DNA of 64,000 bases from NCBI GenBank assembly GCA_019739335.1, contig CP073261.1, positions 558,001-622,000 of the forward strand, written 5' to 3'. Shown here piece by piece: positions 43,668 to 64,000 of the stretch (position 1 is the stretch's first letter; each line of letters opens with the position of its first letter). The translations under genes were made by a program, and so were the position numbers. Origin of the DNA: Erythrobacter sp. GTDB taxonomy: Bacteria > Pseudomonadota > Alphaproteobacteria > Sphingomonadales > Sphingomonadaceae. The notes beneath the pieces were generated by a model that ran no database searches, was not told where the DNA came from, and was given only the letters and a program-made list of their open reading frames with translations.

Positions 43668-46079
43668 ATGCGTTACCTGCTTTCCACCGCCCTCGGCCTT
43701 GCCCTCGCCGCGCCGCTTGCTGCTCCCGCTGCCGCGCAGGAGGAGGGCTATCGCCTGCCGCCCGCAGATGTGGCGGACATTGTGCTGCGCGCGCCGTCGC
43801 CCACCGTCTCGGTCTCTCCCGATGGCGAAACGCTGCTGCTGCTCGAACGCGAGAGCCTGCCGCCGGTCGCAGAACTGGCGCGGCCGATGGAAAAGCTCGC
43901 CGGGCTGCGGCTCGACGTGGCGATCAACGACAGCCACGGCCCGCGCACATTCGTGGGGATGAGCCTGCGCGATCTGGCGGGCAATGCCGAACGCCGCGTG
44001 GCCCTTCCGCCCGAAGCAGATATTTCCGATGTCAGCTGGTCTCCCGATGGTACCCGCGTGGCTTTCACCAATACCCATGCCGACGGAATGGCGCTGATGG
44101 TGCTCGATACCGCCAGCGGCACCACGACCACCGTGATGGAGCGCGGGATCAATCCGATCTTCCAGGGGCCGCGCTGGCTGCCCGATGGTCGGTTGCTGGC
44201 GTTGGTGATTCCCGAGAACCGTGGGCCGATGCCCGAGGAATCGCTGACCCCGGCAGGCCCGGCAATCCAGAACGCTGCGGGCGGCGAGGAAGCGCAGACG
44301 CGCACCTATCAGGACCTGCTCGAAAACCCGCATGACGAGGCGCTGTTCGCCTGGCTCGGCACCAGCCAGCCGGTCGCTATTGCGCTCGACAGCGGGGAAC
44401 GCGAAGTCCTGGGCGAACCACGCCTCTACACTTACGCCGCAGCTTCTCCCGATGGCGAATACATGTTGATGGAATGGCTCGAACGCCCGTTCAGCTATCA
44501 GGTGCCCTACAGCGATTTCCCGCTCACCTCGGTCGTCACCGATGCCACCGGAGCCCATGTCGCTACCATCGCGCAGCAGCCGCTGGCGGACAACCTGCCG
44601 GTGCAGGGCGTGCCGACGGGCCGCCGCAGCATCATCTGGCACCCGACCGAACCCGCGCTGGTGATGTGGGCCGAAGCGCAGGACGGCGGCGATCCGCGTA
44701 TCGAGGCCGATGTTCGCGACGCGATGTTCGCCCTGCCCGCGCCGTTCGACGGCACGCCGCGCGAAGTGGCACGGTTCGAAGATCGTTTCTCCGGCTTCAT
44801 GGGGATCGAGGATACCGACGACGTGATCGCCTACGATTACGACCGTGACAGCCGCGAAATCCGCCTGTCGCTGGTGGATGTGACCGGAAGCGATGCAACG
44901 CGGGTGCTCAGCCTGCGCAATGCACAGGACGCCTATGCCGATCCCGGCTCGCCGGTTTCGGTGACCACCCCGGCGGGCTTCAACGTCGCGCGCCACAGCG
45001 ACGGTGCTCTGCTGCTCTCCGGTGCGGGCGCCACACCGGAAGGTCTGCGCCCGTTCCTGCGCCGCTTCGATCTGGCCACGCTGGAGGTGCAGGAGATCTG
45101 GCGCAATTCAGGCGAAGAGCTGGAGCGGGTGGTGGACGTGCTGGATGACAGCGGCTCGGCCTTCATCACGTCCTACGAAAGCCCCACCGATCCGGGGAAT
45201 TTCCGCCTGCGCCGGGACGACAGCGTGACCGCGCTGACGCAATTCCCCGATCCGCATCCGGAACTGACCGGCATCAGCCGCGAATTGGTCACCTATACCC
45301 GTGCCGACGGTACCGAACTGACCGCCACGCTCTACCTGCCGCCCGATTACCAGCCTGGGCAGCAGCTTCCGCTGGTCGTCTGGGCCTACCCGCAGGAATT
45401 CAACAACGCCGCCACCGCTTCGCAGAACCGAGATTCCCCTTATCGCTTCACCCGCATCGGCAGCTATTCGCACCTGTTCTTCCTGACCCAGGGCTATGCC
45501 GTGCTGGACAATGCGGCGATGCCGGTGATCGGTGCTGACCCCGAGACGGTGAACGACAGCTTTATCGAGCAGGTCGTTTCCAGCGCCCAGGCGGCGGTCG
45601 ATTTCTCGGTCGAACGCGGCTTTGGCGATGGCTACCGCGTCGGCGTGGGCGGGCACAGCTACGGCGCCTTCATGACCGCGCACCTGCTGGCACAGAGCGA
45701 TATCTTCCGCGCCGGAATTGCCCGGTCCGGGGCCTACAACCGCACGCTGACCCCGTTCGGCTTCCAGTCCGAGCGGCGGGTGTTCTGGGAAACGCCGGAA
45801 ACCTATTACGAATTGTCGCCCTTCATGGCCGCCAACCGGATCAACGAGCCGATGCTGCTGATACACGGCACCAACGACAACAATTCGGGCACCTTCCCCG
45901 AACAGTCTGAGCGGATGTTCGCTGCGATCCGGGGCACCGGCGGCACCGCGCGGCTGGTGATGCTGCCGTACGAAAGCCACGGCTATCGAGGACGCGAGTC
46001 GGTGCTGCACACGCTGGCAGAAATGATAGACTGGTTCGATGTGCACGTGAAGGCGGCCACTCCGCCTGCCGCCGAATAG
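43668..46079 (+). CDS. Secreted S9-family serine peptidase (prolyl oligopeptidase type)
   Basis: An 803-residue protein with a signal peptide (MRYLLSTALGLALAAPLAAP, then AAAQ), an N-terminal beta-propeller with TolB-like SWSPDGTRVAFTNTHADGMA blades and an alpha/beta-hydrolase catalytic domain. The triad is visible: Ser in GVGGHSYGAFMT, Asp in LIHGTNDNN and His in YESHGYRGRES. The layout matches the S9D/glutamyl-type exopeptidases often found in sphingomonads. AGGAGGA precedes the ATG. It lies 71 bp after mfd. Confidence 0.9.
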   Translation: MRYLLSTALGLALAAPLAAPAAAQEEGYRLPPADVADIVLRAPSPTVSVSPDGETLLLLERESLPPVAELARPMEKLAGLRLDVAINDSHGPRTFVGMSLRDLAGNAERRVALPPEADISDVSWSPDGTRVAFTNTHADGMALMVLDTASGTTTTVMERGINPIFQGPRWLPDGRLLALVIPENRGPMPEESLTPAGPAIQNAAGGEEAQTRTYQDLLENPHDEALFAWLGTSQPVAIALDSGEREVLGEPRLYTYAAASPDGEYMLMEWLERPFSYQVPYSDFPLTSVVTDATGAHVATIAQQPLADNLPVQGVPTGRRSIIWHPTEPALVMWAEAQDGGDPRIEADVRDAMFALPAPFDGTPREVARFEDRFSGFMGIEDTDDVIAYDYDRDSREIRLSLVDVTGSDATRVLSLRNAQDAYADPGSPVSVTTPAGFNVARHSDGALLLSGAGATPEGLRPFLRRFDLATLEVQEIWRNSGEELERVVDVLDDSGSAFITSYESPTDPGNFRLRRDDSVTALTQFPDPHPELTGISRELVTYTRADGTELTATLYLPPDYQPGQQLPLVVWAYPQEFNNAATASQNRDSPYRFTRIGSYSHLFFLTQGYAVLDNAAMPVIGADPETVNDSFIEQVVSSAQAAVDFSVERGFGDGYRVGVGGHSYGAFMTAHLLAQSDIFRAGIARSGAYNRTLTPFGFQSERRVFWETPETYYELSPFMAANRINEPMLLIHGTNDNNSGTFPEQSERMFAAIRGTGGTARLVMLPYESHGYRGRESVLHTLAEMIDWFDVHVKAATPPAAE

Positions 46080-46085
46080 CAAAGG

Positions 46086-46901
46086 TCAAACGGCGGTCTC
46101 GGTTTCCCTGAGGAACTGCGCCGCCGCCACAGGCCTGCCACCAAGGTAGCCCTGCCATACGTGGCAGCCTTCGCGGACTATCGCGGCGCGCTGCGCCTCG
46201 GTCTCGATCCCCTCGGCGATCACCTGCAAATCGAGCGCCTTGGCCATCGCGATGATCCCGCGCAGCACCGCCAGATCGCGCCCTTCCTCAGCCACGCCTT
46301 CGATCATCGAACGGTCGAGCTTCAGCGCGTGCAGCGGCAGAACCTTGAGATAGCGGAAGTTGCAGAAACCCGCGCCGAAATCGTCGAGCGCGATGCGGAT
46401 GCCCGCCTGCGCCAGCATTTCCAGCCGTTCGGCAGAACGGTCGAGGTCCGCCACCAGCGCCTGTTCGGTAATCTCGAGCGTCAGCCGCTCCGCCGGAAAG
46501 CCGGTCTCCTCCAGCATGGCCAGCAGCCCTTCGCCAAAGCTGCGGTCGAACAGGTCCATCGCCGTGACGTTGAGCGACAGCCGCATCTGCGCAGGCCAGC
46601 CCAGCGCCGCGCGCATCGCCGCGCGTGCAATGTGGCGCGAAAGCCGCCGTGCGATTCCGCCGCTCTGCGCAATTGCCACCAGCGCATCGCCTGCCAGCGA
46701 GCCGTGGTCGGGATGCTCCCAGCGCACCAGCGCTTCGGCCCCCGCCAGCGCTGCGTCCGCGCTGCGCCACTGCGACTGGAACAGCAGGTCTACCCCATCC
46801 GCCGTCAGCGCCTCTGCCAGATCCTCGATGATCGGATGCGGTTCACTGGCGCGGCGATCGTTGCGGGCGCGGCGATCGATGGTCTGGGCTGGGATCGACA
46901 T
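46086..46901 (-). CDS. EAL-domain c-di-GMP phosphodiesterase
   Basis: A 271-residue protein made almost only of an EAL domain, without sensor or GGDEF. Catalytic set: AEALVRW (EAL motif), LNVTAMDL, LEITEQAL (Glu), IALDDFGAGF (DDFGxG), LKLDRSMI (Lys), VIAEGIETEAQ, and GYLGGRP. All metal ligands are present, so an active phosphodiesterase is likely. Converges on the S9 gene; divergent from nadK across 92 bp. Confidence 0.88.
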   Translation of the reverse strand: MSIPAQTIDRRARNDRRASEPHPIIEDLAEALTADGVDLLFQSQWRSADAALAGAEALVRWEHPDHGSLAGDALVAIAQSGGIARRLSRHIARAAMRAALGWPAQMRLSLNVTAMDLFDRSFGEGLLAMLEETGFPAERLTLEITEQALVADLDRSAERLEMLAQAGIRIALDDFGAGFCNFRYLKVLPLHALKLDRSMIEGVAEEGRDLAVLRGIIAMAKALDLQVIAEGIETEAQRAAIVREGCHVWQGYLGGRPVAAAQFLRETETAV

Positions 46902-46993
46902 GGTGCTGCGGCCATGCCGGATCGGTGCGGGAATGGAACCCCCGCGGAATGGCGCGTTGCAAATCGGGACGCGTCTCCATAGGGTTGCCGCCC

Positions 46994-47803
46994 ATGGGAG
47001 AGGCGATATCAAATGGCGGCGAAAGCGGGGGCGAAAAGCGCCTCGCCCTGCTCCATTCGGCGACCGAAAAGGCGGAAGCCGCCGCGCTGGCGATGCGTGA
47101 TCACACCCAGTTCGTAGCGCTGGAAGAAGCCGATATCGTCGTGGTGGTCGGCGGTGATGGCTTCATGCTCGATACGCTGCACGGAATGCTTGATAGCGGC
47201 CGGATGCTGCCGGTGTTCGGCCTGAACCTTGGCACCGTCGGCTTCCTGATGAACCGCTATCCGCGCGCCGGAAGCCTCGCCCAGCGGGTGGCAAAGGCCA
47301 AGCCGCACACCGTCGCCCCGCTGCGAATGGAAGCGGTGACGCAGACCGGCGCGCGCGTCACGTCCTGCGCGATCAACGAAGTCAGCCTGCTGCGTGAAAC
47401 CCGGCAGACCGCCAAGATCGAGATTTCAGTCAACAACCGCGTGCGGATATCCGAACTGGCAGGCGATGGCGTATTGCTGAGCACGCCGGTGGGCTCCACC
47501 GCCTACAACCTTTCCGCCAACGGACCGATCCTGCCGCTCGATTCGCGGCTGCTGGCGCTCACCCCGATCAGCCCGTTCCGCCCGCGGCGCTGGCCGGGCG
47601 CGATCCTGCCCGAAAGCAGCCGCGTCTCCTTCCGCGTGCACGAACCCGCCAAGCGTCCGGTGGCCGTGGTGGCGGACCAGAAGGAAGTGCGCGACGTGGC
47701 CGAAGTCCACGTGGAAATCGCCCGTGACATGGAAATGACCCTGCTGTTCGATCCCGGCCACGCGCTGGACGAACGGATCGTGGCGGAACAGTTCATTACT
47801 TGA
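46994..47803 (+). CDS. nadK: NAD kinase
   Basis: A 269-residue enzyme that phosphorylates NAD to NADP. Motifs: VVVVGGDGFMLDTLH (GGDG), FGLNLGTVGFLMN, INEVSLLRE (NE) and GDGVLLSTPVGSTAYNLSAN, followed by GPILPLDSRLL. The ATG at 46994 is chosen over 46925, whose extra residues overlap the divergent gene. Length is normal. Confidence 0.95.
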   Translation: MGEAISNGGESGGEKRLALLHSATEKAEAAALAMRDHTQFVALEEADIVVVVGGDGFMLDTLHGMLDSGRMLPVFGLNLGTVGFLMNRYPRAGSLAQRVAKAKPHTVAPLRMEAVTQTGARVTSCAINEVSLLRETRQTAKIEISVNNRVRISELAGDGVLLSTPVGSTAYNLSANGPILPLDSRLLALTPISPFRPRRWPGAILPESSRVSFRVHEPAKRPVAVVADQKEVRDVAEVHVEIARDMEMTLLFDPGHALDERIVAEQFIT

Positions 47804-47837
47804 AATAGCAGCAAGACGGATTGGTTGAATCGAGGGC

Positions 47838-47866
47838 TTGTCAAAGCCCGACACCGCCAATATAGG
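47838..47866 (+). promoter_or_regulatory. Candidate promoter of tRNA-Asn
   Basis: TTGTCA (47838-47843), a 17-bp spacer and TATAGG (47861-47866), 38 bp before the tRNA. The -35 overlaps a small hairpin (GGGCTT-GTCA-AAGCCC, 47834-47849) that could end nadK transcription. Confidence 0.45.
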
Positions 47867-47904
47867 CGCACTCCTGCCCCCCTCCATACCGCTTGGGGGG
47901 CTGC

Positions 47905-47979
47905 TCCCCGATAGCTCAGCGGTAGAGTAGGTGACTGTTAATCACTTGGCCGTAGGTTCGAATCCTACTCGGGGAGCCA
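47905..47979 (+). tRNA. tRNA-Asn (GTT)
   Basis: 75 nt including CCA. Acceptor stem TCCCCGA pairs with TCGGGGA, with G73 and encoded CCA; D-loop AGCGGTAGA; anticodon stem GTGAC/GTCAC-type around CTGTTAA (anticodon GTT); T-loop GGTTCGAATCC. Its 3' end is the left end of the island direct repeat. Confidence 0.96.
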
Positions 47980-47984
47980 TTTTC
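47955..47984. repeat. Left attachment-site repeat (attL), 3' end of tRNA-Asn
   Basis: The 30 nt from the T-loop through CCA and TTTTC recur at 62421-62448 in the same orientation, with one 2-nt difference (CGGGGAG here, CGGAG there). This is the usual position of integrase crossover sites in tRNA genes. Confidence 0.8.
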
Positions 47985-48160
47985 CTGAAAATTATTACTA
48001 ATTATCAGGTCTTTGCGCCAAGACCGGCCCCAACCTCCCCACACTCTTCCCCACATCACTCAGTTTTTACGGGGTTATGCCGTTCGATGTTCGCAAATCA
48101 TCTGTCCTTATCCGAATGACGGCTTCTGGGGAAAATCAGCGCGAATGCGAATGGCGACAA

Positions 48161-49967: not shown

Positions 49968-52274
49968 TTAGAATCCGAAATCAACCCCAACCCGGGCCCC
50001 CCAGTCGTCGCCGCCGGTATTGCCGCTGACACCCGCCGAGACGTAGACCATCTCCCCCACGCGGCCCGCCAGCGATCCGGCAAAGCCCTGCTCACCGCCG
50101 TAGTTCGCCGCGTGGAGAGAAACCGAGATGTTGCTGCCGGGCACGATATTCGCCGCCCCCATCGCCATTGCCGCCGCAATCCCGCCGCTCAATTGCTCAT
50201 TCATCTCGTCCAGCCGGAAATTGGTGGCAACAAGCCCGCTTTCCAGTCCGCCGACACGGCCCGACAGCGCCGAGAACTGCGCATCTGTCACCGCGGCGAG
50301 GTAATCGACGCTGACCCGGACATTGGCGACGCTAGCTGCGCTGGCCACGTTCGAGACACCCAGCGTTCCGGCGCTGTCGATGGTGACGACCTGTTCCTCG
50401 CCCACCTGCACAGCGTCCGAAGCCATGATGTCGCCGATGGCAACGCTCGACCCGGCCCCGCCGATCATCACCTGGTTGGCGGCGGTGGTATTGGCGAGGT
50501 AGCCCACTGCGGTCGATTGGACCTGGTCCGCCACCGCGCTGTCGCCTACCGCGGTGCCGCGGGTGGCGGAGGCACTGGCGCCTGCACCCACCGCCGTGCC
50601 GCGGGTGCCGGAAACGGTGGAAGAAAAGCCCACCGCCGTGCCGCTGATGCCGGTGACATCGGTCGAACGGCCAACGGCCGTCGCATTCTGGGCATCGGCC
50701 CGCGCCAGCGCGCCAAAGGCCGAGCCGGACAGGCCGGTGGCCCCGGCAGAGGCGCCGACGGCAGTGGCATTGTTGTTGGTCACTTCCACCGCATTGCCCA
50801 GCGCCACGCTGCGCAGTCCCGAAACGAGCGTATCGCGCCCGATCGCGGTGGCGTCCTCTGCCAGTGCCTCGGCATCGACGCCAAGGGCGATGGATTGCGC
50901 CCCGGTGGCCTGTGCGCCCAGCGCCAGATCATCCGCCCCGTCACCGCCGATTGCAATGGCGCCTGCCTGGTTGGCGGTGGCAAAACCGCCAATGGCCACC
51001 GTGTAATCCCCCTGTGCGCTGGAATTGGCGGTGAGCGCGGCGGCGGCGGTTCCCGATGACTGCGCATTGAAGCCCAGCGAGACGGAGGCCGTGCCGCTGG
51101 CCAGACTATCCGCCCCGATGGCAGTGGAGGCAAGGCCGGTCGCCCGCGCGCCGATGCCGTCGGTCAGAATGCCTTCGCCGCCGATGGCGATCGCCCCGGT
51201 GGGGTTGGCCGTGCTTGCCAGACCGATTGCGATACCGCGCGTGCCGGCAGATGTCTGCGCGCCAATGGCTATCGCGTCTGCCGAACTGGAGGCGGCATTG
51301 CTGCCGATCACGATGGAGCGGACGCCACCTGCCGCGCTGCCCGCCCCGGCAGCAAAGGCATCGGTGGCGGAAGCCACGGCATCTGCGCCGATGGCGATGG
51401 CAGAAGTGCCGGTCGCTTGCGCGCCCAAAGCATCGCCATCCCCGCCATCCCCGCCGATAGCGATGGCTCCTGCCATACTTGCGTCGGAAAACGCGCCAAG
51501 CGCAGTTGAATTCTCCCCGGATGCAAATGCTTCTAAACCCAGTGCCGTGGCCCAGATCTGATTGGCGACAGCAAAGGCTCCAATGCTGGTCGACCCAGAA
51601 GCCGTAGAGCTGGCGCTACGACCGATGGCCGTCGACGATGACCCCGTTGCATTGGCCACGTTTCCCAATGCAATTGCGCTTCCCCCGGTTGCGTTTGAGG
51701 CGGCCCCGATACTGACGGAATTCGATCCCGTCGCATCGGCGCGCGATCCAACGGCGACTGAGGCTACGGCCGCTGTAGACTCAACCCCGATGCTGGTGCC
51801 ATCGAAGCCGGTCGTCTGGGCCAGGTATCCTACTGCGGTGCCGAAATCCACCGCGCTCGAACTGCCCCCGATGCTGGTGGCTTGAGACCCGACAGCTTGT
51901 GCGAAATAGCCAAAGGCACTGGCATTCAACACGGTTGCGTCTGAAAATGACCCGATGCTGGTGGTGTTGTCAGCAGTCGCCTGCGCACCGGAGCCGAGGG
52001 CGACAGATGAGGAACCGGTCGCGTCTGAGTTCGCGCCGATGCTGGTGGAGTTGGGGCCGGTGGCCCCGGCATTAGAGCCGCAAGCAAGGCGGGTATTCAA
52101 ACCGCCCGAATCCGCACCAAGATCGGTATCGACATTGCTGTCGGCATTGCCGTCATTGTTGGTATCGAGCAGGCAATCGTCGGCCATGGCTTCTTGTGGT
52201 GCGAGCAACAGCGTGACTGCCGCGGTTCCGGCGAGCAGGGTTGCGGCGAACAGGGTGCGATTGGTAGTAAGCAT
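49968..52274 (-). CDS. YadA-like trimeric autotransporter adhesin
   Basis: A 768-residue protein: signal peptide (about 1-31, ending AMADD), a Ca-binding-like DTNNDGNADSNVDTDLGADS stretch, and about 580 residues of 14-residue YadA head repeats of the xxxAIGxxAxAxG type (for example GSSSVALGSGAQATADNTTS and TAIGRSASSTASGSTSIGAF). A neck and short stalk follow (LAAVTDAQFSALSGRVGGLE), then a YadA anchor (GGIAAAMAMGAANIVPGSNI) ending in aromatic GVDFGF. It trimerises in the outer membrane and probably mediates adhesion or aggregation. No passenger ligand can be named. Downstream on the strand are repeat B and the MFS gene. Confidence 0.9.
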   Translation of the reverse strand: MLTTNRTLFAATLLAGTAAVTLLLAPQEAMADDCLLDTNNDGNADSNVDTDLGADSGGLNTRLACGSNAGATGPNSTSIGANSDATGSSSVALGSGAQATADNTTSIGSFSDATVLNASAFGYFAQAVGSQATSIGGSSSAVDFGTAVGYLAQTTGFDGTSIGVESTAAVASVAVGSRADATGSNSVSIGAASNATGGSAIALGNVANATGSSSTAIGRSASSTASGSTSIGAFAVANQIWATALGLEAFASGENSTALGAFSDASMAGAIAIGGDGGDGDALGAQATGTSAIAIGADAVASATDAFAAGAGSAAGGVRSIVIGSNAASSSADAIAIGAQTSAGTRGIAIGLASTANPTGAIAIGGEGILTDGIGARATGLASTAIGADSLASGTASVSLGFNAQSSGTAAAALTANSSAQGDYTVAIGGFATANQAGAIAIGGDGADDLALGAQATGAQSIALGVDAEALAEDATAIGRDTLVSGLRSVALGNAVEVTNNNATAVGASAGATGLSGSAFGALARADAQNATAVGRSTDVTGISGTAVGFSSTVSGTRGTAVGAGASASATRGTAVGDSAVADQVQSTAVGYLANTTAANQVMIGGAGSSVAIGDIMASDAVQVGEEQVVTIDSAGTLGVSNVASAASVANVRVSVDYLAAVTDAQFSALSGRVGGLESGLVATNFRLDEMNEQLSGGIAAAMAMGAANIVPGSNISVSLHAANYGGEQGFAGSLAGRVGEMVYVSAGVSGNTGGDDWGARVGVDFGF

Positions 52275-52708: not shown

Positions 52709-54046
52709 TTACCCATGCGAAAACCACACGAATTCGGACACCGGATCGAAGACATGCGGATTGATCGCCTCGGCATCGCTGCGCACTGCACGCGCTTCGT
52801 CTCTGCGGCCAAGTGCTTCGAGCGCGTTGACCTCGGCGCGTAAGTGGGGAGCGCTCAGCCAGCCATCGCGCCTGGCCCGACGCATTTGCGCCAAGGCTCC
52901 TGCGGGATCGCCCGTTGCCAGCAAAGCCTCGGCCAGCAGCAGTCGCGCTTCGCCATAGGGCCGTTCGGCCAAATTGCGCCGCGCCAATTCGAGCGCCCGG
53001 TCTGCGGAGCCAAACTTGAAATGATGTTCGATTGCATGGCCGTATGCCGCTTCGGGCATTGCCTCCAGCCGCTCGTCCCAGATCGCTGTGGCGCGCGCCG
53101 ACCAGCGCCTGCTTTCGGCGTCGCGACCCTCGCTTTGCAGCAGCAGCGCATAGAGTTCGGTGACTTCAACGGGTTGTTCGCCCTGCGCCAACATGGCTTC
53201 GAGCCGCACCAGCGCTTCGCTCTCGCGCCCCGTGAGATAGTCCACCTGCGCCACATGGGATTCGTACAGCCAGAAGCCGGGAAACAGCCGGTCCGCCTCG
53301 ATAAAATGCGCGCGTGCAGCGGAATAATCGCCCTGCGCCTGATCCAGCGCGCCGAGCTGAACCGCAATATCGGCCACGGTGCGCGGCGTCGGGCTGGCGT
53401 CGGCTGCCAGTGCTTCGCGAAACAACCCCTCGGCCCGTTCGAATTCCCCGCGTGCCTTGGCCAGCAAGGCCTGGCGATAGACGGTTCCGGGGCTCGGATT
53501 GAGAATGCGCGCCTCGGCGTAAAGGCGTGTCGCGGCTTGCAGGTCACCTTGGTAGAATGCCAAGTCTCCGCGCAGGCCGAGGACCTCTGCCTGTTCGTCA
53601 GCGGCGGCAGGAACGACTTTCAAGGCGAAGCGGTCAAGTGCTTCCTTCACGGCGTCCAGCCGGTGTGCACCCATGGCCGTATAGGCGGCCACCAGCATAT
53701 GCCCGCTTTGCTCGGGTGCCAAGTCGTTCGCCAATGCTGCAACGCGCTGCGCTTCCTCCAGCATCGCATAGCCGCCGGTGAGCGAAGATTGCGCCATAAG
53801 CGCCCGCGCTAGCGAGGCCTGCACCAGCCAATCGTCCGGGCGGCGCGCCGCGCGCTCGCGTGCCAGCGAAAGCTGCGCTGCTACATCGCGCTGCGCCTCG
53901 GCGAAGTTTGCCGGGCCGAAGCCCGGTTTGGGCAATGATGCCGCCGCGACGGGCGCGCCGCCGTTCTCGCTGCCGAAGAATTCGATTCCGCCCAGCAGCA
54001 ACACCGCGCCGAGCGGCAGCATCAGAAGTCTCAGGGTCGTGCGCAT
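52709..54046 (-). CDS. Tetratricopeptide repeat protein
   Basis: A 445-residue protein with an N-terminal membrane/signal segment (MRTTLRLLMLPLGAVLLLGG) and a solenoid of about ten TPR-like helical pairs, for example GDYSAARAHFIEADRLFPGF, ALVRLEAMLAQGEQPVEVTE and AEALLATGDPAGALAQMRRA. Exported or anchored facing the periplasm. It lies in one reverse operon with two DUF4331 genes (86 bp after the second), a pairing seen elsewhere with ECF sigma/anti-sigma genes. Probably scaffolds or processes the DUF4331 proteins (inference). Confidence 0.82.
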   Translation of the reverse strand: MRTTLRLLMLPLGAVLLLGGIEFFGSENGGAPVAAASLPKPGFGPANFAEAQRDVAAQLSLARERAARRPDDWLVQASLARALMAQSSLTGGYAMLEEAQRVAALANDLAPEQSGHMLVAAYTAMGAHRLDAVKEALDRFALKVVPAAADEQAEVLGLRGDLAFYQGDLQAATRLYAEARILNPSPGTVYRQALLAKARGEFERAEGLFREALAADASPTPRTVADIAVQLGALDQAQGDYSAARAHFIEADRLFPGFWLYESHVAQVDYLTGRESEALVRLEAMLAQGEQPVEVTELYALLLQSEGRDAESRRWSARATAIWDERLEAMPEAAYGHAIEHHFKFGSADRALELARRNLAERPYGEARLLLAEALLATGDPAGALAQMRRARRDGWLSAPHLRAEVNALEALGRRDEARAVRSDAEAINPHVFDPVSEFVWFSHG

Positions 54047-54132
54047 GGGCAATCTCCGCGTCGCAGATCGTGAAGGAAAGATATCGGCGGGCTACCCGAA
54101 GGCGGGCCCGCCGATACCCCGGGGAGAGCCTG

Positions 54133-54861
54133 TCAGGCGGGAACGGCGCAGGGGGTCAGCCCCGCCCTTACAAGATCGTCCGCAAGTGCATTGGTCAGCC
54201 CGGTCAGTTGCGCTGCCAGTTCCGGCACGAAGGTACCAGCGGCATCGTCCGATGGGTTGGCGTCGTTGTAGGCCACCTTCATATTGGTGCCGATCAGCGC
54301 GGTCGCCACGGCGGGCATACCCATTCGGTCCACCCGCACGTACTGGTTGCGGGTGTTGGTGCGGAAGGTGAAGCTCGATCCGTTGCTGGAAGCCAGCGGC
54401 GGCGAACCATGCGGCGCGGCCAGGAAGGGAAAGCCACTGCCGAAGCTCTTGTCGTTTGCCGCAGGATTGAGTGGCAATCCGGCAAGGATCCCCGGACTTT
54501 GGGTATCGAGATCGAGGAAGATCACCGCCAGCGTCACGTCGATCACCGGATCGGGCAGTCTGCGCCCGTTGGGAAACCCTGAGGCCGCCGCCAGATTGAG
54601 CTTGAGGGTATCAGGCACAACTGCGCCCGCCACGGTCAGGCCGGTGCCGGGAATGTCCTGCTGCAGGCACGGCGTGACGTTGAACCCGGCACTGCTCGGA
54701 GTTGGCGTTGGCGTGGGGGTAGGGGTCATGGTCGGCGTGGGAGTTGGGATACTGCCCATGTCGTCATTGTCGTCGCCGCCGCAGGCGCCCAAGCCTAAGA
54801 CAAGCGCTAGGGGAGCGATCATGGCGGCGCTGCGCCGCAAGTGAGTGCGAACAGGGGTCAT
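54133..54861 (-). CDS. DUF4331-related lipoprotein with Thr-Pro linker
   Basis: A 242-residue lipoprotein (signal MTPVRTHLRRSAAMIAPLAL, lipobox LGAC), an acidic patch (GGDDNDDMGSI), then a (TP)n linker (PTPTPTMTPTPTPTPTPSS, about 47-65) and a C-terminal domain. That domain contains NPAANDKSFGSGFPFLAAPH and a RVDRMGMPAVATALIGTNMK segment, a DUF4331 hallmark (NRxGMPxxNxxL). It overlaps the stop of the gene before it by 1 bp (TGATG). Confidence 0.72.
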   Translation of the reverse strand: MTPVRTHLRRSAAMIAPLALVLGLGACGGDDNDDMGSIPTPTPTMTPTPTPTPTPSSAGFNVTPCLQQDIPGTGLTVAGAVVPDTLKLNLAAASGFPNGRRLPDPVIDVTLAVIFLDLDTQSPGILAGLPLNPAANDKSFGSGFPFLAAPHGSPPLASSNGSSFTFRTNTRNQYVRVDRMGMPAVATALIGTNMKVAYNDANPSDDAAGTFVPELAAQLTGLTNALADDLVRAGLTPCAVPA

Positions 54862-55526
54862 CACAACTGCCCTCCGAAACGGGCGCTGGTGGCCCATGCG
54901 TTGATGGGATTGGTGCCGTTCTCGATGCGATCACGCGGGATGCTGATCACCACGGCGGTCAGGTTCTGCCCGGCAAAGAAATCGCGGGTAGAACTGAAGC
55001 TCAGCGCCCCCGTATCGCGGGTCTGACGGAAACCTTGGAGGTCGAAGAAGAACGGATCGTCGAACAGCCCGGCACGTACCATCACGCCTTCCTGCGTGAT
55101 ATTGCTTTCAACCGAGCCTTCGATCGGTCCACCGGTGCCCGGCACATCGTTCACCTGGACGCCGAACTGGTTGGCCCCGGCTCCGCGCCCAAAGCGGATA
55201 TCGATCCGCTGTTCGGCAGAGGTGGCGGCCCCGGCGTTGGAGATGTTGATCGAATAGAGCACGTCGGGGTCGTAAGTGGCTGGCTGATCGGTCGCTTGAG
55301 GTCCGCTAAACGTCAGCACGAAATTGATTTTGTCGTCAGTGTGCCAGGCGTAGAAATCGGCGATATCCGCCGCCCGGTCGGGGGTCTGGTCGACCGATGG
55401 GTCGGTGCGTTGCGGCGGATCGAGGTGGTCGGCGGCGATCAGGCCGATGCCCGGTGCCCACAGCGCTGCGGCAGCGGCAAGCATGATGCCCCCGCTTCCC
55501 GCAACCAGCTTGACGGAGGTACTCAT
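54861..55526 (-). CDS. DUF4331-family secreted protein
   Basis: A 221-residue protein with signal segment MSTSVKLVAGSGGIMLAAAA. It starts the mature part with ADHLDPPQRTDPSVDQTPDR, AADIADFYAW, the DUF4331 N-terminal signature. Later come INFVLTFSGPQATDQPATYD, YSINISNAGAATSAEQRIDI, GRGAGANQFGVQVNDVP and VISIPRDRIENG. The family is of unknown function; the (H/S)SDHxD-type opening suggests metal binding (inference). First gene of the reverse operon, divergent from the sigma gene across 219 bp. Confidence 0.82.
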   Translation of the reverse strand: MSTSVKLVAGSGGIMLAAAAALWAPGIGLIAADHLDPPQRTDPSVDQTPDRAADIADFYAWHTDDKINFVLTFSGPQATDQPATYDPDVLYSINISNAGAATSAEQRIDIRFGRGAGANQFGVQVNDVPGTGGPIEGSVESNITQEGVMVRAGLFDDPFFFDLQGFRQTRDTGALSFSSTRDFFAGQNLTAVVISIPRDRIENGTNPINAWATSARFGGQL

Positions 55527-55745
55527 GCGTTTTCTCCCAGATTGCGACGGAGCGACCGCCACGTACGGACGGCCTGGAGCGGCCATCAGGGAGAGCTACG
55601 TCCGCGAGTAGCGAGTGGATGCAGGTAGCGAAGAATTCTTTGGCTAAGGGGGCAGGCAGAAGTAGGTAGGCTCGGACGGGTCGAAGCAGGATGTTGAGAA
55701 TGTTGGTCTTCTCACTGTCGCCAATCGGTGTTACCTGACCCCGCC

Positions 55746-56321
55746 ATGGGCGATACGGCCAATCTTTCCCTCTCCGAACGCAGGGCCGAGCTGGAGACGG
55801 CGCTGGTTCTGGTCGCCGACGGGGAACGCCACGCGCTGCGCCGCGTGTACGATCTGACCTCGGCCAAGCTGATGGGCGTTATTCTGCACATCGTGCGCGA
55901 TCGTGAAGCGGCCGAAGACGTGCTGCAGGAAGTCTATCTCAAAGTGTGGGACCGCGCCGGGCGGTTCGATGCCACCCGCGCCAGCCCTATCACCTGGCTC
56001 TGCGCCATCGCCCGCAACAGTGCCATCGATGCCGTGCGCCGAAGTGGCAGGCGCAGCGAAGTCTCTGTCGAATTCCTGCCCGAAGTGGCAGACGATGCAC
56101 CCCTCGCCGAAGCCATGCTGTGCGAGGCGCAGGATAGCGAGCGGCTGGAGCATTGCCTGAAGGGTTTGCAGGACGATCACCGTCGCTGCATCCGCCTCGC
56201 CTTCTTCCGCGGCTACACCCACAGCGAGCTTTCGGAGAAACTGGAAGTTCCGCTGGGGACGATGAAAAGCTGGATTCGTCGCGGTCTTGCCAGTCTGAGG
56301 GGGTGCCTTGGCGATGGCTGA
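55746..56321 (+). CDS. ECF sigma factor (SigK-like)
   Basis: A 191-residue sigma-70 of the ECF class. Region 2 has RVYDLTSAKLMGVILHIVRD, REAAEDVLQEVYLKVWDRAG and RASPITWLCAIARNSAIDAV; region 4 has LKGLQDDHRRCIRLAFFRGY and HSELSEKLEVPLGTMKSWIR. ITWLCAIARNSAIDAVRR is typical of SigK-type ECF factors whose anti-sigma is RskA. The ATG at 55746 is used. Overlaps the anti-sigma start by 8 bp. Confidence 0.9.
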   Translation: MGDTANLSLSERRAELETALVLVADGERHALRRVYDLTSAKLMGVILHIVRDREAAEDVLQEVYLKVWDRAGRFDATRASPITWLCAIARNSAIDAVRRSGRRSEVSVEFLPEVADDAPLAEAMLCEAQDSERLEHCLKGLQDDHRRCIRLAFFRGYTHSELSEKLEVPLGTMKSWIRRGLASLRGCLGDG

Positions 56322-57075
56322 CCCGATCGACACCAATCTCTTTGGCCCCGACATCATGGCGGGTGAATATGCGCTGGGCGTGCTCGAAGGCGCGGACCTG
56401 GCAATTGCGCAGCGCCGCTACCTGTCGGACCGGGAATTTGCGGCACGGGTGGAATGGTGGCGGCATCGGCTTGGCTGCATGGCCGAAGCGGCAGGCGAAT
56501 TCGACCCCTCTGAGCAGGTCTGGCCCGCCATCGAACGCCGGTTGTTCAGCGACCGCGAAGGGGGTGGCGCGATGGAAGACCCGCGCGTCCGTCCCTCGAC
56601 CAGAGGCCTGCCCGGCTGGAGTCTCGGTCTGGGCATGGCGATCTCGGCAGCGGCCGCTGCGGCGCTGACTTTCGTGTTCGTCCAGCCTGCCGGACAGCCT
56701 CCGGTGGCTCCGGTCGAAACTGCCGCTCCGGTCGCTGGGGAACGGCTGGTGGCGCAACTGGCGAGCGAGGACGGGGCTCTGACGCTGGCAGGTCTGGTTG
56801 ACGGGCAGACCGGGCAATTGTCACTCAACATCGGCGGCTTCGCACCAGCGGAAGGGCAGGCGACAGAATTGTGGGTGGTGCCTGAAGGCGGCGCTCCGCA
56901 GTCGCTCGGCTTGATACCCGCCAGCGGGACGTTTGCGCGCGATCTGACCGACGCCGAGCGCGCGGCCTTGGTGGCCGGGGCATCGCTCGCGGTAACCTAT
57001 GAAGATGCAGTCAGCGCTCCCCACGCGGCTCCAACTACGGACATCCTGATTATAGGCGGCCTGACGCAGGTTTGA
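56314..57075 (+). CDS. RskA-like anti-sigma factor
   Basis: A 253-residue membrane anti-sigma: cytoplasmic N-terminal part (MAGEYALGVLEGADLAIAQR, the RskA opening) to about residue 105, one membrane segment (GLGMAISAAAAAALTFVFVQ), a Pro-rich hinge and a periplasmic domain (SLNIGGFAPAEGQATELWVV, PEGGAPQSLGLI). The genes' overlap shows translational coupling. It presumably holds the sigma factor until a periplasmic signal triggers proteolysis; the signal is unknown. A TTG at 56308 is an alternative start. Confidence 0.88.
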   Translation: MADPIDTNLFGPDIMAGEYALGVLEGADLAIAQRRYLSDREFAARVEWWRHRLGCMAEAAGEFDPSEQVWPAIERRLFSDREGGGAMEDPRVRPSTRGLPGWSLGLGMAISAAAAAALTFVFVQPAGQPPVAPVETAAPVAGERLVAQLASEDGALTLAGLVDGQTGQLSLNIGGFAPAEGQATELWVVPEGGAPQSLGLIPASGTFARDLTDAERAALVAGASLAVTYEDAVSAPHAAPTTDILIIGGLTQV

Positions 57076-57312
57076 TCCACTTTCCTCGAATTTGGTTCCC
57101 GCTACTCACTGAAAAATAATTCTTTATTCCACTGCATCCAAAATTGGGTCCGGTTCGTATGTCTTGTGCCTCCCGCATCGGGAGGTGCCACGCAACCGGG
57201 GTTGCCGAGCTTGGGGAAGCATCGCAGGGGGCATTATCCTGCGCTGGATTTCTTCGAATTCCGACGCCTTCGCTTGTCGTGGCCTGGTCCACACATGCGA
57301 GAGGAAACAAAC

Positions 57313-58794
57313 ATGTCCCATAGAATTGCAAACCGTTTGGCCATCACTTTACTGAGCGGCACTGCCGCCATTGGCCTCGCTACCACTCCCGCAGCGGCGC
57401 AGGAAATCCCGTTTGATGGCGGCTACGAATGCGTGCTCAACAACGATCTGCTGCTGGTCGATACCACTGCCAACGCCACGGCGCTGGGCGAAGATGCGTT
57501 GGCCTGCGGTGAAGATGCCAATGCCACCGGCCCCTCGACCACAGCGGTCGGTGGCGAGGCCGATGCCACCGGACCTGGCACCACCGCAATCGGCTGGCGT
57601 GCGGAAGCGACCGCTGAACGTGCGACGGCGCTGGGCCACCTCGCCACTGCACAGGGCGTCCGCTCGTTGGCAGTGGGCGAGAACGCCGATGCCCAGTCCG
57701 ACTTCTCCACCGCAATCGGCAATGAATCGATTGCCAACGGCATTGACGCGCTGGCGCTGGGTGACACCGCAATGGCGATGGGGAATTCAACCACTGCGGT
57801 TGGTGGCGAAAGTATCGCCACCGGTCCGGGAGCAACAGCGTTTGGCTGGCGTGCCGAAGCCAACTCCGAACGTGCCACCGCACTCGGCCATCTTGCCACG
57901 GCGCAAGGCGTTCGCTCGATTGCGGTGGGCGAGAACGCCGACGCGCAGACCGATTTCGCTACCGCGATAGGGAACGAATCTGTCGCCAACGGAGTGGATG
58001 CACTCGCGATCGGCGACACTTCTTTTGCAATGGGCAATTCGACTACTGCCGTTGGTGGTGAGAGCGTTGCCATGGGTCCGGGCGCTACGGCATACGGTTG
58101 GCGCTCGGTTGCTGATGGTGAACGCGCGACAGCGCTGGGCCATCTCGCAGATGCTGGCGGCGTGCGTTCAGTCGCGGTAGGTGAAGCTGCCAATGCCTCA
58201 GGTGCGGGAGCCATCGCGCTGGGCAACCAGTCGGTTGCCTCCGGGGTCAACTCGGTCGCTATCGGCAATGGCGCGGTGGCTGCCAATGACGGGCAGGTGG
58301 TGATCGCGGGGCTGGATACCAGCACCGCCTCTCAGGTCGGCCCGGTCTTCGTGCTGACCGCTGACGGCAGCGGCACGCTGGGTCGATCGGCGAGCTTCGC
58401 TACCACCGAACAGGTGGCGGCCAACACCTCGTCGATCAATGTCAATTCCGGACTGATTTCTGCCAATACTGCCAATATCGCCGCCAATTCGGCAGCGATC
58501 GGGGCATTGCAGGGGCAGACCGCGACCTTGTTCGATCTTGCCAATGCTAATGCCCAAGGGCTGCGTGAGGCAAATGAGGGTGTGGCACTGGCGCTGGCGA
58601 TGGAATCGCCGGTCCTCATGCCTAGCGACAGCTTCGGCGTGGCGGGCGGTTTCGGTTACTTCAACAACCGGGTCGCCGGTTCGGCCAGCGTCGCCGCTCG
58701 CGTGAGCGAAAACGCCTATGTTACCGGCGGGGTCGGAGTGGGCTTTGAAGAAGGCGAGATCGGCGCGCGAGCGGGGTTCCAGGCCGCTTGGTAA
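57313..58794 (+). CDS. Second YadA-like trimeric autotransporter, short, with 84-residue repeats
   Basis: A 493-residue protein: signal peptide (ends TPAAAQ), a short Cys-bearing start (YECVLNNDLLLVDTTANATA), then a head made of three 84-residue units of YadA repeats (STTAVGGEADATGPGTTAIG to DALALGDTAMAMGN). A stalk follows (SINVNSGLISANTANIAANS) and an anchor with alternating strands (FGVAGGFGYFNNRVAGSASV), ending GARAGFQAAW. Two copies of the repeat are nearly identical. The region upstream is 237 bp of gene-free DNA. Confidence 0.88.
   Translation: MSHRIANRLAITLLSGTAAIGLATTPAAAQEIPFDGGYECVLNNDLLLVDTTANATALGEDALACGEDANATGPSTTAVGGEADATGPGTTAIGWRAEATAERATALGHLATAQGVRSLAVGENADAQSDFSTAIGNESIANGIDALALGDTAMAMGNSTTAVGGESIATGPGATAFGWRAEANSERATALGHLATAQGVRSIAVGENADAQTDFATAIGNESVANGVDALAIGDTSFAMGNSTTAVGGESVAMGPGATAYGWRSVADGERATALGHLADAGGVRSVAVGEAANASGAGAIALGNQSVASGVNSVAIGNGAVAANDGQVVIAGLDTSTASQVGPVFVLTADGSGTLGRSASFATTEQVAANTSSINVNSGLISANTANIAANSAAIGALQGQTATLFDLANANAQGLREANEGVALALAMESPVLMPSDSFGVAGGFGYFNNRVAGSASVAARVSENAYVTGGVGVGFEEGEIGARAGFQAAW
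57535..58290 (+). repeat. Tandem 252-bp coding repeats, three units
   Basis: Units at 57535-57786, 57787-58038 and 58039-58290 encode 84-residue YadA head blocks. Units 1 and 2 are closely similar; unit 3 is degenerate after LGHLADAGGVRSVAVGE. A collapse or expansion by recombination is likely between strains. Confidence 0.85.
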
Positions 58795-60342: not shown

Positions 60343-60391
60343 GGGTCGTTTGCTGAAAGGCCGCTTTTGTCTCAATCAGGGCGATAGCTGC
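60343..60391 (+). repeat. Intergenic repeat, copy E truncated by the IS
   Basis: The first 49 nt of the 115-bp repeat, ending exactly where the IS3 element begins. The remaining 66 nt are not found on the other side of the IS. Confidence 0.75.
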
Positions 60392-60457
60392 TGACATGAC
60401 CCCCTGATTTTCCTCCAGTCTCGATTAGAGTCCGGCCCTGACAGAAGGACGGACGAG

Positions 60458-60724
60458 ATGAAGAGAACGAGGTTTACAGAAGAGCAGATTATCGGGGTGC
60501 TGAAGGAGGCGGAGGCGGGCGCGAAGACCGCTGATCTGGCCCGGCGGCTCGGTATATCGGAAGCGACGATCTACAACTGGAAGTCGAAGTATGGCGGACT
60601 GGAGGTTTCCGAGGCCCGGCGGCTGAGGGAGCTTGAGAGCGAGAACGCGAAGCTCAAGCGGCTGCTGGCCGACACGATGCTGGACAACGTGGCGTTGAAG
60701 GATCTCCTGGCAAAAAAGTTCTGA
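60458..60724 (+). CDS. IS3-family transposase OrfA
   Basis: An 88-residue protein with an HTH ([20 protein letters not shown], then [16 protein letters not shown]) followed by a leucine-zipper ([20 protein letters not shown]). Ends after AKKF just past the slippery sequence. Binds the IS ends and regulates transposition; OrfA alone is a repressor in related elements. Confidence 0.9.
60712..60718 (+). promoter_or_regulatory. Programmed -1 frameshift site A AAA AAG
   Basis: In the orfA frame the heptamer is read A-AAA-AAG. A one-base back-slip enters the orfB frame (VLTPAAMRE). OrfB's frame is -1 to OrfA's, as expected for IS3 fusion transposase OrfAB. Confidence 0.8.
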
Positions 60725-60735
60725 CGCCCGCCGCC

Positions 60736-61629
60736 ATGCGGGAAGCTGTAGCTCATCTCCGTGCCTGCCACGGGATGAGCGAACGGCGGGCGTGCCGTGT
60801 CATCGATGCTGATCGCAAGAGCGTGCGCTACCGTTCCACCCGGGACGATGATGCCGGTCTGCGTGAGAAGCTGCGCGAGCTGGCCAACCAGCGTCGCCGG
60901 TTCGGCTATCGCCGTCTGCACATCCTGCTGCGCCGGGAGGGCGTGATGATCAACCGCAAGAAGACCCAACGCATCTACCAGGAGGAAGGGCTGGCAGTCA
61001 GGCGGCGACGCAGCCGCAGGCGTGCTGTCGGCACGAGGGCACCGGCTCCGGTGCTGGCACTGCCGAACCAGCGCTGGAGCCTCGACTTCGTGCATGACCA
61101 GATGGCCTCGGGCCGAAGGTTCCGCGTGCTCAACGTAGTCGATGACGTGACCCGGGAGTGCCTGGCAGCGGTGCCGGACACGTCGATCTCCGGCCGCCGT
61201 GTCGTGCGCGAGTTGACCGAGCTGATCGCAAAGCGAGGCAAGCCGGGGATGATCGTCAGCGACAATGGCACCGAGCTTACCAGCAACGCCGTGCTCGCAT
61301 GGTGCGGCGAGATCGGCGTCGAGTGGCATTACATCGCGCCGGGACGGCCAATGCAGAACGGCTATGTCGAGAGCTTCAATGGCCGCATGCGCGACGAGCT
61401 GCTGAACGAGACGCTGTTCATGAGCATGGTCCATGCCCGTGTCGAGATCGCCGCCTGGGTGGATGACTACAACCGGGAGAGACCGCACTCATCCCTTGGA
61501 TACGCAACCCCGGCGGCGTTCGCCGCTGAACTGGATAAGCAATGGCCTGCTCCGCTACGCCCTACGGGCTCCGCTACGCAGCCCATTGCTTCAACCGCGC
61601 TCATGCGCAACAAAGCGGCTCGGCTCTAA
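60736..61629 (+). CDS. IS3-family transposase OrfB (DDE integrase core)
   Basis: A 297-residue protein: N-terminal HTH_21-type region ([20 protein letters not shown]) and DDE core with D in [14 protein letters not shown] in [11 protein letters not shown] and E in [17 protein letters not shown]. All three catalytic residues are present. Probably made as an OrfAB fusion. Intact, so the element may still be active. Confidence 0.92.
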
Positions 61630-61655
61630 TCCCAGCTGGAGGAAAGCTGGGGGTC

Positions 61656-62240
61656 ATGTCACGTTACTTCAAACCCCTGCCCGCTAATGAAACGCCTTAT
61701 GGCCACGACCAAATCGCGCCACCAAGCATGTCTGAGGAGCAAATTCGTGTGTTGGCCGTCGAAGTTGTGCAATCATCTGGTAAAAAATATTTTGTTAGCC
61801 ATGAAAAATTCGAGCAATGTCGACAAAATATCGAGACACCTTTGACTTTTATAAGAGGACTAATGGTTGCAAAGGAGGCTAAAATTGAGCTCGATATGCT
61901 GGAGAAAGCCAAATTACCAAGATTGCTTTCTCAGCCAGAGAATCACAAGCAAGCTTGGGCCATAGAAGAGGAATTCACGACAGATCGAAGGCGCTATGAG
62001 ATAGACTACTTCATACAGAATACTGGCATGAAATTTGGAGACAAATTTCGATTCATTGACGAGGCTAAACGAAATAACATTCAAAATTACGTGATCAAAG
62101 ATTCTGAAAAGAGCGTCTGGCCTGATGAAAATATGAAACTTAAATGGATCATTAGAGATGCGCAAATTAGATTAGTTCATGACGAGGTAAAGAAGAGGAA
62201 GGAACACCTCCGGCTTATAATCAACCAGAACAAATTATAG
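61656..62240 (+). CDS. AT-rich orphan gene joined to the IS end
   Basis: A 194-residue protein with its ATG inside the IS right inverted repeat (GGGGGTCATGTC), so its original N-terminus may be lost. The body is charged and helical: QNIETPLTFIRGLMVAKEAK, YEIDYFIQNTGMKFGDKFRF and RDAQIRLVHDEVKKRKEHLR. Low GC. An in-frame extension runs back to 61542 within the IS. No family recognised. Confidence 0.45.
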   Translation: MSRYFKPLPANETPYGHDQIAPPSMSEEQIRVLAVEVVQSSGKKYFVSHEKFEQCRQNIETPLTFIRGLMVAKEAKIELDMLEKAKLPRLLSQPENHKQAWAIEEEFTTDRRRYEIDYFIQNTGMKFGDKFRFIDEAKRNNIQNYVIKDSEKSVWPDENMKLKWIIRDAQIRLVHDEVKKRKEHLRLIINQNKL

Positions 62241-62420: not shown

Positions 62421-62448
62421 GGTTCGAATCCTACTCGGAGCCATTTTC
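62421..62448. repeat. Right attachment-site repeat (attR)
   Basis: GGTTCGAATCCTACTCGG followed by AGCCATTTTC, a 28-nt copy of the tRNA-Asn 3' end and following bases, lacking two G. Marks the right edge of the island, 66 bp from the end of secA. Confidence 0.8.
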
Positions 62449-62513: not shown

Positions 62514-64000
62514 CTACGCCTGTGCGCCGTGGCAGTGCTTGTACTTGCTGCCCGATCCGCAGGGGCACGGCGCGTTTCGGCTTACGTTCATCCCTGCATA
62601 AGGATCGGCAGTCTGCGACCCGCCTGAGCCGGTGGAGGCCACGGGTGAGGCGGCCAGCGTACCGAACAGCGGCGCGCGGGCTGCCGATCCGTCGCCATCG
62701 TTCGAATTGTCCTCGCCGGTAAAGGGATCGATGTGTCCGGTAAGGAAATCGGGGAGGTCAGGAAGCGCGCGAGGCGGCGGCGGGGCGGCTGCGCGGAATT
62801 CCGCCGTCAGCAGCACCTTGGTAACATCCTCGCGCACGCTTTCCAGCATCGTTTCGAAAAGGCCGAAGGCTTCGCGCTTGTATTCATTGAGCGGCTGCTT
62901 CTGGGCATAGGCGCGCAGGAACACCACCTGCCTTAGCGCATCGAGCGTGGCGAGGTGTTCCTTCCAGTGGTAATCCAGCCGTTCGAGCAGAATGCTCTTC
63001 TCGACCCGCCGCCAGCTGTCTTCCGGAATATCGGCGGTGCGTGCTGCCATCCGCTGCTCGGAAAGATCCTGCAACCGCTCCTCGATCAGTTCGGGCTCGA
63101 CCTGCTCTTCCTGCATCCATTCATCGAACGGCACGTCGAGACCGAGCACGCTTGTGGCCTTTTCCCGCAGCGCCTCGATATCCCACTGTTCGGGGTAGGA
63201 ACCCGGCGGGCAGGCGGCAAACACGATGCCGTTGATCGCATCGCGGCGCATGTCGTCCACCACATCGTCCACGCTCGCGGAATCCATGATTTCGGCGCGC
63301 TGCTCGTAGATCACCTTGCGCTGGTCGTTCATCACGTCATCGTACTGGACGACCTGCTTGCGCATTTCGTAATTGCGCGCTTCCACCTTCTTCTGCGCGG
63401 TCTCGATGGCCTTGCTCAGCCACTTGGAACCGATCGCCTCGCCATCTTCCAGATTGGCGTTCATCATCTTGGCGAACAGCGTGTCCGGCCCGAAAATGCG
63501 CAGCAGATCGTCTTCCAGGCAAAGGTAGAAGCGTGACAGGCCCGGATCGCCCTGACGGCCCGAACGACCGCGCAGCTGGTTGTCGATGCGGCGGCTTTCG
63601 TGGCGTTCGGTACCGAGCACGAACAGCCCGCCCGCTGCCAGCACGCGCGCCTTTTCTTCCGCCACTTCGGCCTTGATCTTCTCGATGGCGGCGTCCTTCT
63701 CGGGTCCGTCCTCCATCTCGCTCAATTCATCCTCGATGCGGAATTCGACATTGCCGCCAAGCTGGATGTCGGTGCCACGACCGGCCATGTTGGTGGCGAT
63801 CGTCACCGCACCGATGCGCCCCGCCTGCGCCACGATATGCGCTTCCTGCTCGTGCATCCGGGCGTTGAGCACCGCGTGCTTGACGCCTTCCTGATCGAGG
63901 AACTTGCTCAGCAGTTCGCTTTTCTCGATCGAGACCGTACCCACCAGCGTGGGCTGTCCACTTTCGCTCTTTTCGGCGATGGCCTTGGCGATGGCCTGGA
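62514..64000 (-). CDS. secA: Preprotein translocase ATPase SecA, 3' part
   Basis: At least 495 residues of the C-terminal half; the gene begins beyond the window. SecA motifs: [70 protein letters not shown] and DDLLRIFG (NBD2). The helical wing and scaffold follow ([20 protein letters not shown]). The tail is Pro/Ser-rich and ends with the SecB/zinc motif [17 protein letters not shown]. Core gene downstream of the island. Confidence 0.96.

Follow-up and report, generated by a model that had tools for sequence, protein, structure and literature searches.

Which genes answer to a SigK-like sigma factor in an alphaproteobacterium, and what kind of protein is its neighbour DUF4331? Both questions are raised by positions 52709 to 57075 of a 64,000-nucleotide stretch of an Erythrobacter sp. 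genome (assembly GCA_019739335.1, contig CP073261.1, positions 558,001 to 622,000), which as a whole we call the window. Here an extracytoplasmic function (ECF) sigma gene and its anti-sigma gene adjoin two DUF4331 genes, dufA and dufB, and a gene for a TPR protein. We think, with a probability of roughly 0.7, that the pair forms a SigK/RskA-type envelope switch driving dufA-dufB-TPR and a nearby gene for a YadA-head protein, and that DufA and DufB together rebuild one DUF4331 unit. The switch is of a known kind; the target set is newly recognised, and the split, permuted form is a new one of an unstudied family. Because no paper in the literature that we searched, which excluded most subscription journals, names DUF4331, PF14224 or IPR025566, the regulon, the partner genes and the split form would be the first handles on what DUF4331 does.

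The sigma factor, its anti-sigma factor and the operon

A preliminary description of the locus had recognised a SigK/RskA-like pair, placed it in a genomic island and set it divergent to a DUF4331-DUF4331-TPR operon. All three points are borne out. Reading the open reading frames of the window, we found the five genes of the locus again:

52709-54046, minus strand: TPR protein, third gene of the operon (profile match; homologues in other pair loci)
54133-54861, minus strand: dufB, lipoprotein with an LGAC lipobox, C-terminal half of DUF4331 with its segments swapped (profile matches, alignment)
54861-55526, minus strand: dufA, exported, beta-rich N-terminal half of DUF4331 (profile matches, AlphaFold2 model)
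55746-56321, plus strand: SigK-like ECF sigma factor, with C137 and C187 as equivalents of C133 and C183 in SigK (profiles, PDB sequence search)
56314-57075, plus strand: RskA-type anti-sigma factor with one predicted transmembrane segment at about residues 104-124 (RskA_C profile)

By coordinates and strands, the sigma and anti-sigma genes, which overlap by 8 bases, run away from the dufA-dufB-TPR operon, in which dufA and dufB share one base (TGATG). The closest solved relative of the sigma factor is SigK of Mycobacterium tuberculosis (4nqw chain A, 9.4e-31), the next (2q1z, 2.2e-18) being far weaker, and the NCBIfam SigK model gives it 154 bits, below the cut-off of 226. The two cysteines align with those of SigK and occur together in 39 of 61 related sigma sequences, a single one in none. 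For SigK C133/C183, the consulted part of PMC7509140 gives conservation in 94% of ECF18 and 56% of ECF19. The anti-sigma factor bears every mark of an RskA, namely an RskA_C match of 47.2 bits (cut-off 29.4), one membrane segment and a gene that overlaps with that of the sigma factor. Its N-terminal DIMAGEYALGVL is similar to the AS19-1 helix HTLAGAYALDAL given in PMC7406223.

A shared candidate promoter element

We spotted the element GCATCC-N16-CGTA by eye upstream of dufA and of a YadA-head gene behind rskA, and then scanned for it. The features concerned are:

55597-55622, minus strand: candidate ECF promoter GCATCC-N16-CGTA of dufA-dufB-TPR
57134-57159, plus strand: candidate ECF promoter GCATCC-N16-CGTA of the YadA-head gene
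57313-58794, plus strand: YadA-head repeat protein of 493 aa, predicted second target (profile match, element upstream)

These two sites are the only exact matches in the window. Across relatives, 13 of 75 non-redundant dufA upstream regions carry the element, while 500 shuffles gave a mean of 0.02 and a maximum of 1, and the reverse strand gave 0. A control on real sequence, the 78 named loci with a dufA-dufB pair, has 13 sites before dufA against 8 elsewhere in 2.8 million nt, with 0.06 expected; 4 of those 8 precede fasciclin or YadA genes. Positions outside the search pattern are conserved as well (T before GCATCC in 24 of 32 sites, C and T after CGTA in 26 and 27 of 32). The extended form TGCATCC...CGTAGCT, derived from sites that include the one before dufA, occurs in the genome at that site only.

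The element also lies directly behind rskA in 8 of the 19 RskA loci of DUF4331-bearing genomes, where the next gene is of fasciclin type in seven cases (by Pfam in one of them) and a YadA-head gene in one. MPB70 and MPB83, known SigK targets, are of fasciclin type according to the part of PMC10540498 consulted; the window has a YadA-head gene behind rskA and so lacks the fasciclin-type target of the SigK group. Because the element is common to dufA, to the gene behind rskA and to the fasciclin genes behind rskA in relatives, we infer that the DUF4331 operon belongs to the regulon of the adjacent sigma factor, for which the support is comparative. The operon had been proposed as that regulon, and as far as it goes the proposal agrees with ours; the regulon seems to reach beyond the locus then described, to the YadA-head gene at 57313. 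A motif search suggested for 55527-55745 yields the element on the dufA side and none for the sigma gene.

In the genome as a whole the exact spacing N16 occurs six times, the two window sites included, and of the other four only one looks like a promoter. It lies 34 bases ahead of a DUF2147 gene (G000:C1:1122403, locus L059), a possible third target; here and below, G000 is the genome of the window itself, and other L and G numbers are loci and genomes of the comparison sets. A wider regulon drawn from the pattern genome-wide was dropped, since its 13 matches (N15 to N17) equal the 13 in a reversed control.

Two halves of one DUF4331

The locus had been credited with two DUF4331 genes. Both proteins do exceed the Pfam cut-off of 27 bits for PF14224 (48.8 and 60.3), but they are not two homologues. 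On the model of 421 positions DufA aligns to 10-79 and 159-235, and DufB first to 362-421 and then to 246-316, so that neither spans the model in order. Judged from these alignments, DufA and DufB are complementary halves of one DUF4331 rather than two copies, and the second half is swapped. The division into a soluble and a lipid-anchored form, also described earlier, agrees with what we see: DufA has a hydrophobic N-terminus ahead of AADH and lacks the lipobox that DufB carries.

Fused proteins elsewhere keep a single order, in which a beta-rich N-terminal part is followed by QVSRLG-PLVNE and finally by MLRLNT-GFPNGRR-FPYL. In DufB, GFPNGRR-FPYL comes first and VDRMGMP second. A model built from 15 fused proteins was run on 64 of the 81 listed DufB sequences and found both segments in 58, swapped in 51 and collinear in 7. 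The swapped ones belong to the window and to members of Sphingomonadales or Caulobacteraceae, one (L201) being placed as Proteobacteria only. The collinear ones (L228, L230-L235) come from Sandaracinaceae, Polyangia, Granulosicoccaceae, Eisenbacteria and one further bacterium, that is, from Myxococcota, Eisenbacteria, a single gammaproteobacterium and that further bacterium. Outside the family of the window, 15 of 19 DUF4331 genomes in a Pseudomonadota sample have the fused form (the loci of 14 were fetched, G283 being left out); within the family, 22 DUF4331 genomes comprise 18 with a split pair, 3 with the fused form and 1 with a fragment only. Because fused, split-collinear and split-swapped forms are distributed in this way across taxa, gene fission followed by circular permutation fits their spread, and DufB would, in that order of events, stem from what was once the C-terminal half of the fused protein. 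The three forms together offer a rare opening to study how circular permutations originate.

AlphaFold2 models make DufA beta-rich (predicted local distance difference test 82.0) and DufB mainly helical (74.3). The termini of DufB may meet, as is suggested by short strands that the model has at about residues 60-61 and 240-241, and C65 and C238 are invariant in 21 of 21 sequences of the family sample. PDB sequence searches with DufA, DufB and the anti-sigma factor returned nothing useful, nor did a PHROGs search.

Variation of the −35 element and a possible change of the controlling sigma factor

Further forms of the −35 block (AAATCC, AAAACC, GCATCG) occur before dufA in relatives, and by the sequences compared the −35 element varies together with the sigma clade. 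On a tree of the 61 sigma factors, where six labels were set by hand and the remainder by a preference rule, the labels need 19 changes against 33.8 when shuffled. AAAACC and GCATCG-CGTC have one origin each, in one sigma clade each, and AAATCC takes two changes. A further variant, GCAACC-N16-CGTA, was matched in one locus (L177), before sigma and behind RskA, there ahead of dufA.

The genome of the window probably belongs to Aurantiacibacter, as two same-genus genomes, G542 and G545, have sequence in common with records of A. zhengii and A. odishensis. In A. zhengii, of the same genus, dufA is divergent to one sigma gene and has AAATCC-N16-CGTA upstream. A second sigma-RskA pair of that species, close to the pair in the window, has behind it a YadA-head gene preceded by GCATCC-N16-CGTA. 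The dufA of the window adjoins this second kind of sigma factor and carries GCATCC. Because A. zhengii pairs AAATCC and dufA with one sigma factor, and GCATCC and yadA with another, the dufA operon seems to have exchanged its controlling sigma factor, in either direction. In the trees, with middling support, DufAB of the window groups with that of Aurantiacibacter (86/87; also 90/84), and the sigma factor of the window with those of the Croceicoccus kind (91/72). No recognised element is present in the Altererythrobacter and Citromicrobium-like loci of the same group. Sigma clades with different −35 elements before the same operon make up ready-made orthogonal sigma-promoter pairs, and the same set tests how regulons change masters.

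Recurrence of the layout and known systems

The preliminary description already had the layout recurring in other bacteria. It is found beyond chance: 27 of the 78 named pair loci hold both sigma and RskA matches, and when strict adjacency is required 25 remain, of which 18 are divergent and 7 have the same strand. The co-occurrence check proposed at the same time also comes out positive: among 149 family genomes, RskA is present in 20 of the 22 that carry DUF4331 and in 51 of 127 others (one-sided Fisher test, 6.4e-6, which ignores relatedness). A TPR homologue accompanies 18 of 19 family pair loci and 74 of 78 named loci. HupE occurs in 42 of the 78; the operon of the window has no HupE gene, and two HupE-like genes elsewhere in its genome (about 31% identity with operonic HupE across most of the sequence) do not have the element.

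The nearest known system is SigK-RskA of the M. tuberculosis complex (ECF18/ECF19). As far as the consulted parts of PMC7509140 and PMC10540498 go, it shares the closest sigma sequence, the paired cysteines, the membrane anti-sigma factor of RskA type and a small regulon made up of proteins that are secreted or at the surface, which includes MPB70 and MPB83 as a secreted and lipid-anchored pair. In contrast, the envelope here is Gram-negative, the switch is predicted to act on an operon of split DUF4331 and on a gene for a YadA-head protein, and −35 GCATCC and −10 CGTA are known by comparison only. Fused DUF4331 genes stand beside SigK/RskA in other Pseudomonadota (L138-L149), with the same family and the same type of regulator, but as a single gene in canonical order that lacks a lipoprotein half. 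Of the 14 fused loci fetched from other families, sigma and RskA are on the same strand in 10 and convergent in two, L150 and L151, and in two more neither is present; 10 of 14 have a HupE-like gene, and all six tested have TPR-like matches, three of them above cut-off. The split pairs of L228 and L230-L235 resemble the window in having two adjacent genes with a half each, but their second gene keeps the fused order.

We propose that RskA crosses the inner membrane and retains the sigma factor until an envelope signal frees or activates it; the C137-C187 pair of the sigma factor may provide a redox input. The sigma factor would then read the element at 55597-55622 for leftward transcription of dufA-dufB-TPR and the one at 57134-57159 for the YadA-head surface protein. 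The exported DufA and the lipoprotein DufB would be made in a coupled manner and would join, on the periplasmic face of a membrane, into a single DUF4331 unit that has the TPR protein for a partner. A fuller account adds to alphaproteobacterial fission and permutation a C65-C238 disulfide tying the new ends of DufB, a hand-over between sigma clades with exchange of the −35 element, and an envelope-redox regulon. We offer it tentatively and would rather bet against it as a whole. Its redox part is suggested because the sigma factor has the cysteine pair and because in one relative (G027) a peroxiredoxin gene lies under the same element: GCATCC-N16-CGTA at 8064-8089 of L114 stands ahead of an AhpC/TSA-type gene just upstream of a sigma-RskA pair.

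Points against and alternative explanations

Several results weigh against the proposed switch. With two mismatches allowed the window holds 69 matches where 72 are expected, and the genome-wide pattern is not enriched over its reversed control. No recognised element is found in 36 of 71 dufAB loci, and the higher count reached with the later-recognised variants (28 of 75 dufA regions; shuffled mean 0.74, maximum 5) was made on the same upstream regions from which those variants had been read. On the sigma tree GCATCC is dispersed (11 changes, shuffled mean 15.1) and 22 of 61 sequences carry no label. The sigma gene of the window has no element upstream and hence no sign of autoregulation. In the family sample, sigma-RskA is linked to the pair in only 3 of 19 pair loci. 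Finally, fold searches lend no support to a biochemical role: the DufA model has no PDB match at E <=0.001 (its best VIA Z, 6.4, is to antibody domains and lies inside the common range), and the DufB model has zero matches.

One could also argue that DufA and DufB are independent and no longer meet, DufB being permuted because it acts alone. DufB is lipid-anchored and DufA is not, and an extra dufB copy directly ahead of dufA (dufB-dufA-dufB-TPR) in L038, L217 and L051 would suit this view. However, the two genes are adjacent and in most cases (58 of 78 named pair loci) overlap by one base, as TGATG, with ATGA in 5, and their products jointly cover one full-length DUF4331, so we regard independence as unlikely.

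We give a little less credence to the idea that the island sigma factor controls only the YadA-head gene, dufA being a neighbour through island assembly and driven by another factor or by the other SigK-like sigma factor (G000:C1:2161179). The genome does have this second sigma-RskA pair, the Aurantiacibacter dufAB with which that of the window groups bears AAATCC, and YadA-sigma-RskA occurs with no adjoining dufAB in A. zhengii and in G544. Nevertheless, the dufA of the window carries GCATCC, as the YadA gene of the adjacent sigma factor does, and not AAATCC, and in the locus of the second pair (L097) the stretch directly behind rskA lacks such an element.

It is quite improbable that GCATCC-N16-CGTA is the binding site of another regulator kept beside these genes. 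The element was defined from sequence alone and GCATCC is a short word, but it consists of two blocks at a fixed spacing of 16 nt, the second of which resembles the −10 element of ECF promoters, for which CGTA is typical. Moreover, the site behind rskA precedes a known type of SigK target, and co-variation with the sigma clade argues for a promoter. The idea that internal repeats, through weak profile matches to one another, only mimic a swapped order can practically be dismissed, for although a third, weak hhalign match (0.0097) pairs other parts, two non-collinear matches of DufB to the fused form reach 6.9e-9 and 1.3e-6, the motifs GFPNGRR...FPYL and VDRMGMP... each match their own full-length counterpart (E near 1e-5 to 1e-8), and the model that reads 51 of 58 sequences as swapped and 7 as collinear reads fused proteins in one order.

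The island and neighbouring genes

The whole gene set is housed in a 14.5-kb island behind a tRNA-Asn gene. Its edges and remaining features are:

47905-47979, plus strand: tRNA-Asn (gtt), left edge of the island (ARAGORN; the conserved flank stops at 47985 in relatives)
47955-47972, plus strand: left copy of an 18-bp direct repeat, within tRNA-Asn, likely attachment (att) site
62421-62438, plus strand: right copy of the repeat, likely att site
49968-52274, minus strand: YadA-head repeat protein of 768 aa, with no exact promoter element upstream (profile match, element scan)
60736-61629, plus strand: rve transposase of a multicopy element resembling an insertion sequence (element about 60389-61663)

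In same-genus genomes the flanks 44500-47985 and 62515-64000 adjoin, with a gap of 163 bp in G543 and of about 1.9 kb in G535. The tRNA edge, the direct repeat and the empty site in relatives mark the island as a tRNA-borne one. Two same-genus genomes of the family sample (G014, G103) have neither DUF4331 nor RskA.

The two YadA-head proteins resemble trimeric autotransporters of the YadA type in having 16 head repeats each. No anchor domain was detected in the one at 57313, and that of the one at 49968 scores 16.8 against a cut-off of 22.7. Repeats of the latter gene match its own genome at C1:1889520-1929260, 1192255 and 2094213.

Near DUF4331 genes, DUF4394-autotransporter proteins occur in L043 and L053, one of which has the split and the other the fused form. 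In L139 (8857-9375) and L138 (6869-7411) fused DUF4331 is separated from the TPR gene by a small gene of the bacterial-Ig type (Big_9). The transposase-bearing element at 60389-61663 recurs in identical form at G000:C1:3123917, and G547 has about ten copies of it.

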